Positions 2,173-26,055 of a DNA stretch of 33,840 nt are shown in pieces. Under the pieces are notes generated by a model, which worked only from the letters and a program-made list of their open reading frames with translations, made no database searches and was not told where the DNA came from. The translations under genes and the position numbers were made by a program. Position 1 is the stretch's first letter, and every line of letters starts with the position of its first letter. Origin of the DNA: Candidatus Parabeggiatoa sp. nov. 3 (GTDB lineage Bacteria > Pseudomonadota > Gammaproteobacteria > Beggiatoales > Beggiatoaceae); assembly GCA_003645185.1 (NCBI GenBank), contig QNEL01000020.1:1-33840 (forward strand), in the 5' to 3' direction.

Positions 2173-3468
2173 ATGAGAATTAAGTCTCTTGAGGTGCAAA
2201 ATTTTAAAGGTTTTGAATACAAAAAATTGCATTTTTCACCTCAATTTAATGTATTAATTGGTAATAATGGGAGTGGTAAAACAGCGATATTAGATGCTTT
2301 AGCGGTGAGCATGGGTGGGCTGTTGCTCGGCTTTGATGGGATTGCTTCTCGTTCCATCAAAGAGGAAGAAGTTCGTCAGGTTTACCGCCAATCGGGTCAA
2401 ATTACTGAACTTATTCCACAACATCCGGCTATTGTGCAGTGTGTTGGACAGATTAATGATTCAAACACCCTAAGCTGGGAACGTCGTTTAAATAAAAAAC
2501 AGGGCAAAACCACACGCCAATATGCTAAAACAATCAGACAATATGGTGAACAATTACAGAAAAAAGTAAGAGATGGCGAGCCTGTTGTATTGCCTTTATT
2601 GAGTTACTATAGTACAGCGAGACTTTGGCTTCAGAAAAAAGATAAAGTCGAATTGGTTAAACCCGGATCGCCTACTTCAGGATATGTGGACTGTTTGGAA
2701 ACGGCTTCCAATGAAAAAATGCTGATGGGTTGGATAAAAACCATGGAAATTGAGGCCTCACAGCGGCAAGCATTGCTTTTTGTGTTAGAAGGCTTACGGG
2801 ATGCTGTCAAAAATTGTTTAGAAGGCTGTGAATCGCTTTATTTTAGTGTGCAATTGGATGGGCTTATCGCACGGTTTGGGAATGGGCAAACCCTGCCTGC
2901 TTATCTGTTAAGCGATGGACAGCGGACTATATTGACAATGGTAGCCGATATTGCCTATCGAGCGGCCGTTTTAAATTCACATTTAGGCGAAAAAGCGGCC
3001 CTCGAAACGCCAGGCATCGTACTCATTGATGAAATTGATTTACATCTACATCCCGAATGGCAACGAACAATAGTCGAGCAATTAAAAACGAGCTTTCCTA
3101 AAATTCAGTTCATTGCCACAAGCCATTCTCCCATTATCATTCAATCTTTAAAACCGGGTGAAGTGATTAACTTGAACGATGAACAGATTGGCGACTATTA
3201 CAATAAAGGAGTTGAAGACATTTTAGAATGGGTTATGGGAGTGGCTAACTCACCGCAAAGCGAAGGCCGCTTAAAAATGATGGAAGTGGCAAGAGAATAT
3301 TATCGGCTATTAGAACACGCTAAGGAGAGGGCACCAGAGGAACTTGAGCGAGTCAAAGCGCGTTTAGATGAATTATCGGCACCTTATAGTGATAACATTG
3401 CCTATCATGCTTTCCTAGAAATGAAACGTGAGGTAGCTGGATTAGGAGATGACAATGCGTCCCGTTGA
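2173..3468 (+). CDS. ptuA: PtuA-like ATPase of a Septu-type defence pair
   Basis: 431 residues, an SMC/ABC-like ATPase of the AAA_15/AAA_21 type. It opens with the strand MRIKSLEVQNFKGF typical of this group. Walker A is GNNGSGKT (30-37), the signature-like segment LSDGQRT (246-252), Walker B VLIDEID (283-289) followed by a D-loop-like HLHP, and the switch His is in ATSHSP (His318). GGAG lies 8 nt before the ATG. The gene overlaps the following HNH nuclease gene by about 14 bp, so the two are translated together. ATPase + small HNH is the gene pair of Septu anti-phage systems and of retron effectors. Known for the family: PtuA and PtuB form a complex that cuts invading DNA. No reverse transcriptase is beside it, so a stand-alone Septu-like system is the better reading. 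The assignment rests on motifs and operon structure, not on a search. Confidence 0.8.
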   Translation: MRIKSLEVQNFKGFEYKKLHFSPQFNVLIGNNGSGKTAILDALAVSMGGLLLGFDGIASRSIKEEEVRQVYRQSGQITELIPQHPAIVQCVGQINDSNTLSWERRLNKKQGKTTRQYAKTIRQYGEQLQKKVRDGEPVVLPLLSYYSTARLWLQKKDKVELVKPGSPTSGYVDCLETASNEKMLMGWIKTMEIEASQRQALLFVLEGLRDAVKNCLEGCESLYFSVQLDGLIARFGNGQTLPAYLLSDGQRTILTMVADIAYRAAVLNSHLGEKAALETPGIVLIDEIDLHLHPEWQRTIVEQLKTSFPKIQFIATSHSPIIIQSLKPGEVINLNDEQIGDYYNKGVEDILEWVMGVANSPQSEGRLKMMEVAREYYRLLEHAKERAPEELERVKARLDELSAPYSDNIAYHAFLEMKREVAGLGDDNASR

Positions 3469-4132
3469 ACGTGGTGAACAACCCACTGATGACACTGGAA
3501 AACCAATCCGTTTTATGAAATATCAAGAAGCGAGTCCTTATTTAAAGGAACGATTGGGGAGATATTGTTCATATTGCGAAATGCACTTACCAGCAGGGCT
3601 GCATGTAGAACACATACAACCCAAATATCATCATCCTCAACAGAAATTAGACTGGAATAACTTTTTGTTAGCTTGTGTTCATTGTAATAGTGCAAAAGGG
3701 AATACAAATATTATCGCAACAGAATATTACTGGCCAGATCAAGATAATACTTTTCTGGCTTTTGAATATGGGGAAGAGGGCTCAATCAGGCCTAATCCAA
3801 AACTGACACCAGAACAACAGCGTTTAGCTTTAAAAAGCCTCGCACTTTTTAATTTAAGCCAGAAGACTTGTCCTGAAAATGATCCTCGTTTACTTCAACG
3901 TCGTGAAGCTTGGGAAATTGCTAAAGAAGCCTATACTGATTTACAAAATGGCGCAACCATTAGAACCGTGAAAAGATTAGCTCAAGCCAAAGGATTTTGG
4001 TCAGTTTGGATAACCGTTTTTCAGGACAATCCTGAAATGTTAAATCTGTTTATCCAAGCTTTCCCAGGGACTTGTCAACAGTGTTTTGACGAATCCGGTC
4101 AAGCTGTGAAGCGTTTCGGCGGGGCAATATAA
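3455..4132 (+). CDS. ptuB: PtuB-like HNH endonuclease (TIGR02646-like)
   Basis: 225 residues from the chosen start. AGGAG (3444-3448) touches an ATG at 3449 but is correctly spaced (6 nt) from the ATG at 3455. That start gives MRPVERG, the usual opening of this family as I remember it. The HNH/zinc core is CSYC (Cys38, Cys41), HVEHI (His50, Glu52, His53), WNNFLLAC and CVHCNSAKG (Cys74, Cys77, Asn78). These residues supply the zinc ligands and the catalytic His/Asn of a beta-beta-alpha-metal nuclease. The C-terminal ~120 residues are helical and without motifs. Partner of the ATPase encoded just upstream; expected to degrade DNA when the complex is triggered. Confidence 0.8.
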   Translation: MRPVERGEQPTDDTGKPIRFMKYQEASPYLKERLGRYCSYCEMHLPAGLHVEHIQPKYHHPQQKLDWNNFLLACVHCNSAKGNTNIIATEYYWPDQDNTFLAFEYGEEGSIRPNPKLTPEQQRLALKSLALFNLSQKTCPENDPRLLQRREAWEIAKEAYTDLQNGATIRTVKRLAQAKGFWSVWITVFQDNPEMLNLFIQAFPGTCQQCFDESGQAVKRFGGAI

Positions 4133-17845: not shown

Positions 17846-17916
17846 ATCATGACAATCAGCGCAATCTGCGTTCTATCACGTTGTTGAAAATTCACTTATT
17901 TTCTGTTTAACATCAT
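17846..17916. repeat. Dispersed ATGACAATCAG...TTTTCTGTTTAACAT repeat
   Basis: A ~70-bp segment with a clear relative at 22022-22092 and a shorter one at 1815-1846. The shared parts are ATGACAATCAG, GCAATC, GCGTTCTATCA and TTTTCTGTTTAACAT. It lies in the 356-bp gap upstream of the LysE-type gene, where I see no gene. Confidence 0.6.
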
Positions 17917-18046
17917 GTTGATCACGACAACTTAGCGTCTCGATGCGCTTCGCTGGAGAATGAAAATGAATATGACAAAGTCAAATTAACGATTAAGCTC
18001 ATCCGCCGTCAACGTAGGAGGTGAGCGGGAGCGCCATGTTAGGCTC

Positions 18047-18361
18047 TTATGTTCTTTGATAGTAGTCAAATCCCTCAAAAGTATTCTCAAGCGCACGTTC
18101 TAGTTTTTGATATTCTCTATCGTCTCGGTTAAAGGTTATTTCTAATTGCCCATCATTGTCCATTTCTGAGGCTGCTTCTTTATCCATTTGAATCGAAATG
18201 CTTTCTCGCTGTAATTTGACACTGAGCAGATGGCCGTACCATGACCAACCTTGGTCGCAATATTCTATGTAGGGTTTGTCCCAGCCGAACCGAATATCGT
18301 CCTCAGTAAATTCGTATGCTTGCTGAAACATGAGATAAAAATCTTCATCTTCTGTTGAAGA
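18047..18361 (-). CDS. Imm10-like immunity protein, 3' exon
   Basis: The open frame runs from the intron boundary (codon TCT at 18361) to the stop at 18047; the first internal ATG is at 18331 and has no ribosome site. The block FYLMFQQAYEFTEDDI, then GWDKPYIEYCDQGWSWYG, then LEITFNRDDREYQKLERALE matches the pattern I recall for immunity protein family Imm10 (YLLLQR, EFDEQD, YIE-x-DQ, YGG). Such proteins neutralise toxins of contact-dependent or polymorphic toxin systems; no toxin gene is nearby. Codons upstream of the ATG (SSTEDEDFYL) also fit the family, so a start at 18331 would truncate the protein. Joined to the exon at 19158-19244 it gives about 133 residues. Confidence 0.65.
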   Translation of the reverse strand, partial: SSTEDEDFYLMFQQAYEFTEDDIRFGWDKPYIEYCDQGWSWYGHLLSVKLQRESISIQMDKEAASEMDNDGQLEITFNRDDREYQKLERALENTFEGFDYYQRT

Positions 18362-19157
18362 GTTAAACTAAGCCCCCTACGTCACCGTAAAGGACTCGTC
18401 TTCAAAGCACAAGCCATGAGACTGATCCCGAACACGGCTTCTCTCCTAACTGTTGTTATTTGGCCTTTCATGGCCTTTCCAATACCGTCTTTAAACTGTT
18501 ACTCGCGTAACATCATTTCATCATGCTCTGAGAATTACTTCCCACTCATGGTATTGATATATTTAATGACTATACTGTTCTCAGTTAGCAGTGTACACGT
18601 AGGCATATCCCCTTTATTACAAAGAGGCTTTAGCTTTTTGCACAATCCTGTTAAGCCTATCTATTAAAGTTTGATAAACGGAACTCACCGCCATAAAAAT
18701 GTTCGGGATGAGTCTAATAAACTTAATTACCCCGTTTCCAAAGATTGGCTATATTCAGACTTAGATATTATCTATACGCCGTGGTAATGATTCTTACGAA
18801 TCCAACACCTATCATATTACTAGGGCTTTGTCATAAGTGTTTTCTTACCAAACACGGATTGTAACTTAGCTTGTTTCCGCTTGTTGTCACGACGTTTTAT
18901 GTGCATCGATAATTTCTTGCGTTATCATATCTGATTATCTAGCACTGTTTAATAAGCTAATTCATTAAACAACACATTATTCCCTGCTTTATCAGAATTT
19001 TATCAGGAATCCAATAAGGGAATTGACGTAGACTTTAGGTCATCTTGAGATAGCTTTAATCTCACAATCTTTGAATTATCACAATAGGCTTTAAAAACTG
19101 CCAAATTGGGCTCATGTTACGCACATTTTAACGTGCTTTGCATGAAACGGGTCGCAC
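18362..19157 (-). ncRNA. ORF-less group II intron (ribozyme) inside the Imm10-like gene
   Basis: 796 nt. The 5' end on the minus strand is GTGCGACCC, the GUGYG consensus, with a typical ATGTGCGTAAC a little further in. Near the 3' end, AAGCCGTG and CATGGCTT pair as a domain V-like hairpin (about 18420-18452). After TTTGAAGACGAGT comes a domain VI hairpin with about 12 bp and a GUGA tetraloop, then CTTAGTTTAAC, giving an A 7 nt before the AC end. Removing it joins two coding pieces in the same frame. The last exon bases TTGGGCT are complementary to AGCCCAA at intron nt 46-52, though this is unusually early for EBS1. No reverse-transcriptase ORF is inside, so mobility or efficient splicing would need a protein from elsewhere. 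Confidence 0.65.
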
Positions 19158-19244
19158 AGCCCAAAGAACAGTCAGCCATCCCCAGTCTTCTGAAGTCGCC
19201 GAAAAATTGTTAGCTTTAAATCCGTTTTTCATTTCGGTGTTCAT
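19158..19244 (-). CDS. Imm10-like immunity protein, 5' exon
   Basis: 29 codons from ATG 19244 (or ATG 19232) to the intron boundary: FKANNFSATSEDWGWLTVLW and then Ala. It is directly followed by GTGCGAC and ends on a codon boundary, so it joins in frame with the exon beginning at 18361. The composition and position fit the first strand region of Imm10-type proteins. Without splicing, translation would run into the intron and stop within about ten codons. No clear Shine-Dalgarno is seen. Confidence 0.5.
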
Positions 19245-19318
19245 TTTTTTTCTATAGCGGCGCAAAAAATACTTTTGTTTGTAAGTGTGCAAGTATTTTT
19301 CCGGTATTTAGGGTTATT

Positions 19319-19356
19319 GCAAAAACCCAGTTTTTGCCAAAGACTGAGTTTTTGGC
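19319..19356. repeat. Two adjacent small hairpins
   Basis: CAAAAACCCAGTTTTTG (19320-19336) and GCCAAA...TTTGGC (19336-19355) fold next to each other between the GyrB-like gene and the Imm10-like gene. They might end transcription of the former, but the stems are AT-rich and weak. Confidence 0.4.
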
Positions 19357-19395
19357 TGTGTTCCTGACGATTAAAACTTCAGCTTGATTAAATTA

Positions 19396-20010
19396 TTAGC
19401 AGTTAATGCTAATGATAAGTTCTGGCATTGCTTGCCTGATTTGGCTAACCCATTTTTGTAAACCCACCTTATCAAAATTGATTTTATGAAAAAGACATAA
19501 GTCAGGTTTAACTCGCAATTTAGTAAACTCTTTGCCTTCGTATTCTTTGATTTCAAAGTGCGATAATGGGAAACCTTTTGAGTATGTTTGTTTTCCGATA
19601 TGATTCTTTGATGCGGTTTCTATCTCCAATTGACTTGATAGCGCGTTGACTACCATGATTCCTATTTCACAAAACTTCCCACCAACTTCTAAATTCTTCT
19701 TCATATTTTGACAGGCGTGCAATCTAGTCATTATGAGTTCAGCAACGCATATACCGTCTTCCGGTATCATTTCTAGTGACATGCCCGCATCATACTCTAT
19801 TTGAAATTCAGAAACGCCAAGCAATATCGCTATATTAGTGCAGATTCCATTTATATGTTCGTCTAATGCATGACAGAGACACTGCTGAACCATTTGATTC
19901 TGAATCGCCGGTTCACTCGGATCACCACCCAAATACATAGAGGAACGTTTCCGTACTGCTTCTTGCCCACTAATTAGCTTTATATCTTCACGACTGTATT
20001 TCTTTTGCAT
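19396..20010 (-). CDS. Degenerate GyrB/ParE N-terminal (GHKL) domain protein
   Basis: 204 residues with an AAGGA ribosome site before the ATG. SGQEAVRKRSSMYLGG aligns with the LEAVRKRPGMYIG start of GyrB/ParE, and MIPEDGICVAELIMTRLHA and VVNALSSQLEIE match the segments around the ATP site. The catalytic features are gone: the base Glu (E. coli Glu42) is Gln43, the Mg-binding Asn (Asn46) is His47, the GRGIP glycine box reads AGMSLE, and the GGLHGVG lid reads GGKFCEIG. The protein stops after the GHKL domain, without transducer, TOPRIM or GyrA-binding parts. The open frame is intact despite these losses, so it is more likely a non-catalytic paralogue than a fresh fragment. Role unknown; it might bind gyrase, but that is speculation. 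Confidence 0.75.
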   Translation of the reverse strand: MQKKYSREDIKLISGQEAVRKRSSMYLGGDPSEPAIQNQMVQQCLCHALDEHINGICTNIAILLGVSEFQIEYDAGMSLEMIPEDGICVAELIMTRLHACQNMKKNLEVGGKFCEIGIMVVNALSSQLEIETASKNHIGKQTYSKGFPLSHFEIKEYEGKEFTKLRVKPDLCLFHKINFDKVGLQKWVSQIRQAMPELIISINC

Positions 20011-23736: not shown

Positions 23737-24360
23737 TTAGAGAGAAAAATACAATTTATGTTTTACTTGGCTTGTTCTATTGTCTTCATCGTAATCATTT
23801 TGATTGCTGCGAATACGACCTTTATTTGCTATAAGATCATCTGAGTGTGATTCCAAGATAATGGCAATATGACCTGGTATTTGAGTCAATCCAACGAATA
23901 ATGGCATGTTTTTGCCTTGCGCGCCATTGTCCAAAGAATTGCTTGAGATGCCTATTATTCCAAAATAGGGATTGGCAGGTTGCTCTTGTTGATTATCAGC
24001 ATTCACTCTTAAAACCAAATTGGCATAACGCAAATGTGACCAAACGAGACGTGCTTCGTCGTTTTTACTTTCTGAATCAAAATGACCTTCAATCACACCA
24101 TCCCCATTACCATTTGTTATAGAAATGTCCTCATTGTCTCCAAACTTTAAGTCGGCCCATTGATCATCGCCCGGTAGAGCATGGTAACGTTCCTGATAGA
24201 TAGAAACCGCTTGAGCAAGACTATTAAAGCTATTTTCAATATTTTGGATTTTGGCATTGGTGATCATCTCTTTTCCTTTAAGTACCATGCCTAACAGTAA
24301 ACCCACTATGACTATCACTATAGACATTTCTACCAATGTAAAGCCTTGTCGTTTTTTCAT
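23737..24360 (-). CDS. Prepilin-like protein 1 of a tandem trio
   Basis: 207 residues from the chosen ATG at 24360, which has AGAGGG about 8 nt upstream. The type IV prepilin leader is MKKRQG followed by FTLVEMSIVIVIVGLLLGM, with Glu at position 5 of the mature protein. PilD would cleave after Gly6 and methylate the Phe. The mature body starts with the long hydrophobic helix and then has IYQERYHALPGDD and a C-terminus ending LYFSL, shared with the two paralogues upstream. It is likely a minor pilin or pseudopilin that assembles into an inner-membrane-based filament. No assembly ATPase or secretin gene is in the window. Confidence 0.85.
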   Translation of the reverse strand: MKKRQGFTLVEMSIVIVIVGLLLGMVLKGKEMITNAKIQNIENSFNSLAQAVSIYQERYHALPGDDQWADLKFGDNEDISITNGNGDGVIEGHFDSESKNDEARLVWSHLRYANLVLRVNADNQQEQPANPYFGIIGISSNSLDNGAQGKNMPLFVGLTQIPGHIAIILESHSDDLIANKGRIRSNQNDYDEDNRTSQVKHKLYFSL

Positions 24361-24616
24361 TGTATCTTCCCTCTTATGATCAATGATCACTCGATGTGCT
24401 ATTTTTTTTAACACACTGATTTATAAAGCTTTTTAGCAATAACAGTACAAAATAAAGTGTATTTATTTTCTTAAAGAAAAACAAACAGTTAATTTTATAG
24501 GCCTATCCACAGCAAAGCTTAAACCCCCCGTTTTTTTAACGAAAGAACATTGGTAGTGATCAATTATCTGTTTCCTGCTGTAAGAGCAATCCCCCGCGCA
24601 AGCCCCATTAAACAAT

Positions 24617-25237
24617 TCACAAGGCAAAGTACATTTTATGCCGTATAAAAGCCTGTTTATAATTAAATTCTTCAGTTTGAATACGGCCCATGTGTGGTTG
24701 ATTATCGTCAAGACGTGACTCAAGTATGATAGCAGCGTGATTGGGAATGTTGGTGAAACCAACAAATAAGTCAGAAAGGGTTATAGGAATCCTGCCTATT
24801 GTTTGAGAAGAAACCCCAATGATACCGTTAAATGTTTGAACCGGCAGTTCAGTCGAACCCGGTTCACCTTTAATTAAATCAGCTAAACGTAAATGTGCCC
24901 AACAATGGCGACTTTCTTTGCTTTCATCCGGGGTTTGGGAAGCATCATCAAATTGACCATTGATATCGCCATTGCCATTGCCATTCATAATGGTGGTGAT
25001 GTGTTCAGGGAAGAGTGTAAATTTTTTTGTTGCCAGTTTATCATCCCCTGGTAATGCTTTGTAACGATCTTGATAGGTATAAATCGCGGCCGATATGCCT
25101 TTGTAGTCATTCTCAAGTTGTTTAATTTTGGCGTTGAGAATAATTTCTCGTCCCTTGAGTACAGCAGCCAAAAGCATGCCGACAATCACCACCACTATGG
25201 CGATTTCTACCAGTGTAAACCCGGCTTGCCTGTTCAT
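24617..25237 (-). CDS. Prepilin-like protein 2 of a tandem trio
   Basis: 206 residues from ATG 25237, with GGAAG about 9 nt upstream; a start 15 bp earlier would add five residues before the leader. Leader MNRQAG followed by FTLVEIAIVVVIVGMLLAAV. The body has IYTYQDRYKALPGDD, HCWAHLRLADLI and IILESRLDD, and ends KMYFAL, all aligning with its neighbours. Same predicted fate: PilD processing and incorporation in a pilus or pseudopilus. The gap of about 256 bp to the next gene downstream means the three genes may be separately transcribed copies rather than a tight operon. Confidence 0.85.
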   Translation of the reverse strand: MNRQAGFTLVEIAIVVVIVGMLLAAVLKGREIILNAKIKQLENDYKGISAAIYTYQDRYKALPGDDKLATKKFTLFPEHITTIMNGNGNGDINGQFDDASQTPDESKESRHCWAHLRLADLIKGEPGSTELPVQTFNGIIGVSSQTIGRIPITLSDLFVGFTNIPNHAAIILESRLDDNQPHMGRIQTEEFNYKQAFIRHKMYFAL

Positions 25238-25382
25238 GATATTGACTTCCAATGGTCATTTAGTTTGTACTAAATCGGTAAAGTCAGGCAGGAGGGCGTT
25301 CAGGATTAGCTTAGCTTCTAAAACGAATGAACTCCTGTAGCGCCTACAACGAATGAATTGTTTAAATGTCTGCAACGCCCTT

Positions 25383-26018
25383 TTAAATAAGAGAAAAATA
25401 CAAGTTAATATCACCCGCGTCTTTGATATTACCCGTAATATAATCGGGGTTTGTTTTGTCAGTTTGAACACTCCCATCATTTGGGTTGCTATCGTCCGAA
25501 CGTGCTTCAATGATAATGGCAATCTTAACGGGAATCTTAGAAAATCCTATGTACGTTCCCATTTTCTTAGCGGTTTGATCACTCCTAATCTTATCTGTCT
25601 CGGAAGAAACACCTGTGATACCATTAAAAGCGTTAATAGGTTGATCAAGCGAGGAAGGCTCACCATCCACTAATCCGGCAGCACGCAGATGTAACCAAAA
25701 TATACGGCTTTCCACAGTATCTGAATCCGTATTATTAAACTCTCCCTCAATACCATTTTTACCATCACCCTTTGGAATTGTTGCCCCTGCTTCTGGAATA
25801 AATCTTTTGTCTGCTCGTGAATCATCCCCTGGTAACGCACGATAACGATCTTGATAGCTATAAATGGCAGCCGTGATGCCCGTAAAATCATTCTCAAGAT
25901 TTTTAATTTTGGCTTGAGTAATAATCTCTTGCCCTTTGAGTACACCACCCAAGAGTAACCCAATAATCACCATAACAATAGCGATTTCCACCAATGTAAA
26001 TCCAGCTTGCTTTTTCAT
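25383..26018 (-). CDS. Prepilin-like protein 3 of a tandem trio
   Basis: 211 residues from ATG 26018; GGAGG lies 7 nt upstream, which fixes this start over one 30 bp earlier. Leader MKKQAG then FTLVEIAIVMVIIGLLLGGV, followed by IYSYQDRYRALPGDD, IFWLHLRAAGLV, GFSKIPVKIAIIIEAR and INLYFSLI. The three proteins share the layout of an N-terminal helix, a YQ-x-RY-x-ALPGDD block and an IAIIIE-R-DD block near the end, so they came from gene duplication. It is the first of the three in transcription order and has the best ribosome site. Substrate or function of the filament is not evident. Confidence 0.85.
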   Translation of the reverse strand: MKKQAGFTLVEIAIVMVIIGLLLGGVLKGQEIITQAKIKNLENDFTGITAAIYSYQDRYRALPGDDSRADKRFIPEAGATIPKGDGKNGIEGEFNNTDSDTVESRIFWLHLRAAGLVDGEPSSLDQPINAFNGITGVSSETDKIRSDQTAKKMGTYIGFSKIPVKIAIIIEARSDDSNPNDGSVQTDKTNPDYITGNIKDAGDINLYFSLI

Positions 26019-26055
26019 TTGATTATCCTCCGTAATCAGCCTACCCAAACTCTTT

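Follow-up and report, generated by a model that had tools for sequence, protein, structure and literature searches.

Introduction

In group II introns, domain V (D5) forms the active site; its counterpart in the spliceosome is the U6 hairpin. In degenerate organellar group II introns and in group III introns, D5 is non-canonical or missing and splicing is helped from elsewhere. D5 bears the catalytic triad and an AY bulge (PMC4424553). Group II introns that lack an open reading frame (ORF) are mobilised in trans in Thermosynechococcus elongatus (PMC2882425), and 57 annotated IIB2 introns, together with remnants and non-coding versions, are listed for Candidatus Thiomargarita nelsonii (PMC4853749).

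Here we analyse an intron in the window, a 33,840-nucleotide stretch of DNA from Candidatus Parabeggiatoa sp. nov. 3, together with its relatives in the same genome and in a sister species. Like the organellar introns, many of these introns have a non-canonical D5; however, the organellar introns lie in core genes and are individually degenerate, whereas one discrete alternative D5 recurs here across many bacterial copies. The likeness to T. elongatus lies in the many ORF-less copies, the ORF-bearing relatives in the genome and the good EBS/IBS pairing at each site, but in that organism the ORF was lost by one deletion and no altered D5 class is noted in the available text (PMC2882425), whereas about 40% of the copies here have a refolded D5. 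In Ca. T. nelsonii, dsrA contains a group I intron; the sister genome studied here likewise has one, located directly behind the dsrA start, a likeness that suggested Thiomargarita for both genomes. D5 types, exon pairing of ORF-less introns and an Imm10 insertion are not mentioned in the accessible part of that account (PMC4853749). At this sister locus (L163, G001:C3), a type-A group II intron stands directly before dsrA, and the group I intron is inside or next to the gene. A two-state D5 is undescribed in the accessible text of the open-access literature searched.

Results

An ORF-less group II intron in an Imm10-family gene

An earlier note on this DNA had claimed a maturase-less group II intron with a GTGCGAC start, an AC end and a domain VI-like hairpin with a GUGA loop, splitting an Imm10-like gene whose exons join in frame at 19158/18361; all of these observations were borne out (Table 1). 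The joined exons encode 133 aa with the junction at residues 29/30, and this protein matched the Pfam Imm10 profile PF15588 (E 4.6e-16, 59.4 bits, cut-off 28.6), with the alignment of residues 14-113 to profile positions 6-104 running continuously across the splice junction. Exon 2 alone scored 51.3 bits from profile position 19 in the genome profile search, and the unspliced reading of the gene meets a stop 9 codons inside the intron. In-frame joining alone is weak evidence for an intron and was dropped as proof, because 14 of the 137 possible GUGYG..AY pairs in the window (~10%) also join openly. The exact boundaries were accepted because family copies share these ends and the Imm10 profile spans the junction. 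The note had also proposed a search for uninterrupted homologues, and none was found in 57 relatives, 398 genomes of the phylum or plasmids; the Pfam profile is the only stand-in for one. Both exons are undamaged, and no cognate toxin partner was identified within the window.

Table 1. Positions of the exons, the intron and its parts in the window.
Feature	Position	Strand	Remarks
Exon 1, Imm10-family gene, 29 codons	19158..19244	-	ATG at 19244; joined protein matches PF15588 across junction
IBS2 TGTT, exon 1	19167..19170	-	
IBS1 TGGGCT, last 6 nt of exon 1	19158..19163	-	5/6 pairs with EBS1
ORF-less group II intron, 796 nt, GTGCGAC...TTTAAC	18362..19157	-	identical ends in other copies beside unrelated exons
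EBS2 loop GACAACAA	18881..18888	-	AACA pairs with IBS2, 4 bp
EBS1 AGCCCT, domain I	18822..18827	-	register common to six copies
Variable stem-loop	18700..18715	-	15/16 nt complementary to D5 type-B tip
Domain V region, non-canonical	18406..18440	-	
Type-B tip TCGGGATCA (canonical type A: GAGGTGAAA)	18423..18431	-	
Second D5 change, GGCTTGTGCT replacing GCACGGTT, 3' strand of helix 1	18406..18415	-	15 copies
Domain VI	18363..18405	-	stem with GTGA loop, candidate branch A at 18369
Exon 2, Imm10-family gene, stop codon included	18047..18361	-	

At the level of sequence, the element is confirmed as a group II intron by its homology, ends, domain VI (D6) and EBS/IBS pairing. It opens with GUGYG (GTGCG at 19157) and closes with AY (AAC at 18362), the 3' end reading ...GTAGGGGGCTTAGTTTAAC (terminal letters also given as TTAGTTTAAC). 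The D6 hairpin has an 11-bp stem (AGTCCTTTACG/CGTAGGGGGCT) and, 7-8 nt short of the intron's end, a candidate for the bulged branch A (18369); an extra basal helix, UUGAA/UUUAA, is possible by eye. Both EBS1 and EBS2 pair with the 5' exon, and the intron is homologous to the C107 intron (74% over 608 nt), which carries a maturase gene and a canonical D5, a domain that the window copy lacks. No maturase ORF lies within its 796 nt. The window intron also had no match to the Rfam D1-D4 models; this was dropped as evidence and is uninformative, since maturase-bearing introns of the lineage with a canonical D5 miss these models too.

Two domain V tip structures

Domain V of the window intron is non-canonical, which the earlier note overlooked; the canonical form combines an AGC triad in helix 1 with G-U, a 2-nt bulge on the 3' side and a GNRA-like tip. 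In the alignment, the canonical D5, here called type A, reads AGCCGTG-TGAGGTGAAAGTCTCA-YG-CACGGTT, and in type B the nine tip nucleotides GAGGTGAAA are replaced by TCGGGATCA or TCGGGATTA. The window copy keeps the AGC sequence, has a type-B tip and has lost the canonical 3' strand of helix 1 to a second change. When the covariance search for domain V that the note had suggested was carried out, no Rfam family matched in the window at gathering score, and neither Intron_gpII (RF00029) nor any other group II family matched at 17900-19400 even at E = 10; the alignment attributes this failure to the type-B tip together with the second change. In the same genome, 18 other copies scored above the RF00029 cut-off and others scored 17-31 bits. 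Type-A copies without the second change mostly reached 46-60 bits, above the cut-off, in contrast to about 16-31 bits for type-B copies without it and no match for the window copy.

Counted from individual genome stretches, 89 distinct intron 3' ends (37 from the window's genome and 52 from the sister species) comprised 48 of type A, 4 of type A with the second change, 26 of type B and 11 of type B with the second change, giving totals of 52 A and 37 B (~40% B) with one unclassified tip, canonical in form, counted as A. The second change was confined to 15 copies in the window's genome among these ends of the two species.

The type-A tip forms the standard helix with a 2-nt bulge, and type B forms a different 4-bp helix. 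With sequences that have the second change set aside, 103 of 104 A-helix pairs form across the 26 distinct A sequences, none of which makes a complete B helix. Across the 11 distinct B sequences, 42 of 44 B-helix pairs form; the B helix is intact in 10 of the 11, and none makes the A helix. No A/B intermediates were found, and helix 1 is retained in both types, its strands varying in step. In the RNAfold prediction, type B has a GGGA/UCUC helix capped by a UCAG or UUAG loop, and a 2x2 internal loop stands where type A has its 2-nt bulge. One copy (L149) has GAGA/UCUC, its GGGA-to-GAGA change replacing G-U by a restored A-U pair. Type B without the second change retains the triad as well as the bulge nucleotides of the 3' strand, and a bulged isomer formed through U9-A24 could, judged by inspection, restore the bulge, so that loss of catalysis is unproven. 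Folding of the window D5 was poor: its RNAfold z score was -0.98, as against -3.2 to -5.7 for six other D5 sequences.

We also considered type B as a copy or partner of the variable stem upstream (Table 1). This was rejected: complementarity to the tip over the full 16 nt exists in the window copy only, with an 11-nt partial match in one other copy (L201) and none in the other B copies, and is therefore probably incidental. Just 5' of D5, four copies (L003, L029, L030 and L055) have a third exchanged block, TTCGATAC replacing GGGAAAGA, which removes the A of the AGC triad and is found with both tip types.

Related introns, maturases and exon pairing

The host genome (8.37 Mb in 853 contigs) holds about 40 related intron copies. 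The window intron had 48 blastn matches there, the best other copy being 91% identical over 685 nt, and the related copies start with GTGCGAC and end with TTTAAC beside unrelated exons. An unbiased D5-D6 pattern found 38 sites in this genome, as against 0 for the reversed pattern. A matching maturase elsewhere in the genome, which the earlier note had suggested looking for, was found: five TIGR04416 maturases, one of them in the C107 intron, scored above the cut-off in the host genome, where the maturase genes are intact, and two in the sister species.

Exon pairing was assessed in a fixed register in the six copies, four of them type B, that have the 5' exon and domain I on one contig. EBS1 paired with its own exon at a mean of 5.5 of 6 positions, compared with 2.5 of 6 when exons were swapped, and the EBS2 run gave 4.8 with own exons and 3.3 with swapped ones (jointly, permutation p = 0.00135). 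Type-B copies paired equally well. Such a match to the copy's own exon is expected after retrohoming or RNA-guided reverse splicing.

Several copies had unusual arrangements. Two tandem, near-identical D5-D6 units 208 nt apart at L193 (G000:C460, 1300-1617) put two 3' splice sites on offer, recalling the alternatively splicing C. tetani intron. At L203 (G000:C480, 3754-4014), D5 is duplicated in tandem and the first unit lacks a D6 stem, and at L191 (G000:C745, 2590-3039) a type-B intron is nested within the apparent HNH end of another intron's maturase.

Exchange and distribution of the two types

In a tree built from the sequence flanking D5, with the tip and 3' strand excluded, the A/B label required 22 changes, of which well-supported branches impose 10 or more, and the species label required 3. 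The two types reassort nearly freely over the flanks, and some sets with identical flanks hold both. Tip columns failed the four-gamete test with the most partners of all columns in both families examined; because non-tip columns failed as well, exchange among copies appears general and is strongest at the tip. Type-B copies, including doubly changed ones, occupy many different sites with near-identical 3' ends (L188-L190 and L154-L162), which is most easily understood if the copies moved in that state.

Type B is less diverse than type A. The unbiased D5-D6 pattern also picked out nine D5 sites in four other genomes of the family, every one of them type A, and when 369 genomes of the class were searched, the type-B pattern was confined to the window's own genome; type B therefore looks, from its distribution, to be derived within the genus. 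Three exact-pattern matches in a broad contig collection had no group II signal and were about as many as expected by chance, and the idea of type B as a widespread D5 was rejected. No co-changing receptor for type B was seen by eye in domain I (D1).

Genomic context of the two types

Nine introns have a maturase gene, whole or partial, together with a D5 that can be read, and every one of these is type A (hypergeometric p 0.006, given 37 B among 89). Among resolved ORF-less introns there were 9 B and 5 A, counting the tandem copy L193 once, compared with 0 B and 9 A among maturase-bearing ones (one-sided p about 0.0025). Open frames of 80 codons or more from the 3' junction were sense in 18 and antisense in 3 A introns, and sense in 7 and antisense in 6 B introns, a suggestive difference in coding context (Fisher p 0.057 for strand bias; p 0.15 for the sense-coding fraction). 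Type-A introns are located within or ahead of AA_kinase, HAD hydrolase, Sigma54_CBD, T2SSF, AIRS, FixG_C, histidine-kinase and DsrH genes; NB-ARC, Imm10 and HNH genes harbour B introns, and the NB-ARC exon that follows a B intron is undamaged. Taken together, the maturase, strand and gene associations, modest as single tests, suggest that B introns have a reduced ability to splice and are tolerated in places where splicing is of less consequence.

Discussion

We consider it fairly probable that the window element is a genuine intron mobilised in trans, whose D5 was altered by short-tract exchange and whose splicing is now weak or lost. An ORF-less intron of the genus-resident family would have entered the Imm10-family gene by RNA-guided insertion, with its EBS1 and EBS2 loops paired to the exon directly upstream and with trans help from the maturase of a related ORF-bearing intron elsewhere in the genome. 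Type B probably reached many copies after their own insertion or independently of it, through recombination or conversion limited to a very short stretch of D5, and such exchange with other copies would have altered the window D5 before or after insertion; it now has type B and, in addition, a helix 1 whose 3' strand is destroyed. Canonical type A is kept in all maturase-carrying copies and in those interrupting core genes. The window intron would now splice poorly or not at all, and full-length immunity protein would be low or absent.

The interpretation offered in the earlier note stands as regards a group II intron splitting an Imm10-family gene, but its suggestion that immunity depends on splicing is made doubtful by the altered D5. 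Weak or lost splicing would probably disrupt the gene and, given that type B is absent from maturase introns and has no sense bias, dependence on splicing may amount to interruption: the Imm10-family gene may be interrupted rather than splicing-dependent.

It is possible, if somewhat unlikely, that the type-B D5 is instead a working alternative domain V, with ORF-less introns splicing and retrohoming through type-A maturases and Imm10 expressed through splicing. The main argument for this is the presence of near-identical, doubly changed copies at several sites (L188-L190); type B is also common to many copies at different sites and occurs in several intron subfamilies, in two species and in 37 of 89 copies, yet in none of the nine maturase-bearing introns. 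The conserved B helix, with 42 of 44 pairs, an A-U-restoring change and no intermediates, speaks for function, as do the retained triad and 3'-strand bulge nucleotides of copies without the second change and the bulge that U9-A24 might form, but no co-changing D1 receptor is seen by eye, and bulge mutations were reportedly found to block splicing by Schmidt et al. in 1996 (cited in PMC3669008). Equally good exon pairing in B copies and undamaged exons, both of Imm10 and of NB-ARC after a B intron, fit splicing; the missing sense-strand bias does not, and helix 1 of the window copy is without its canonical 3' strand as well. Mobilisation of ORF-less introns in trans is itself known from T. elongatus (PMC2882425). 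Slightly more doubtful still is the fuller proposal that type B is a catalytically competent fold without a fixed 2-nt bulge, kept in this genus beside the canonical one and specialised to ORF-less introns that depend on a maturase in trans.

It is very improbable that the mosaic of A and B is an artefact of assembly or amplification and that the true D5 of the window intron is canonical. Many contigs do stop about 122 nt inside the intron, as is typical of short-read assemblies broken at repeats, and the genome is in 853 contigs; however, contig ends at that distance imply overlaps that phase D5 with the exon, and the window copy lies 18 kb inside its contig between exons of one protein domain. 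The B structure, with its own sequence variants, is also present in the independent assembly of a second species, and nothing else was found from which the B sequence could have come. A dead, decaying relic of no special pattern is highly unlikely as well, for although D5 is degenerate and truncation or inactivation is frequent among bacterial introns (PMC4424553), everything tested outside D5 (ends, D6, EBS/IBS and exons) is intact and the D5 changes are two exact shared blocks, unlike random decay.

The Imm10 insertion alone is a modest curiosity; the altered D5 is present in many copies and in both species. If type B is inactive, the question becomes why one inactive D5 form spreads through a family by near-free exchange of a block of about 9 nt. 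If it works, the definition of the active site would be relaxed, and if the alternative fold is true, current D5 models would overlook an entire class of bacterial introns.

Neighbouring genes in the window

Upstream of the Imm10-family gene, a reading frame at 19396-20010 (-) begins, by eye, like a GyrB-like ATPase (VRKRSSMYLGG), and it had no match in Pfam or PADLOC. At 23737-26048 (-), three genes in tandem share prepilin-type N-termini (GFTLVE) and resemble one another in their pseudopilin-like sequences. An ATPase gene and the HNH gene next to it at 2173-4132 (+) match PtuA (E 3e-145) and PtuB (E 9e-79), and by these matches the pair is assigned to the Septu type of anti-phage defence.
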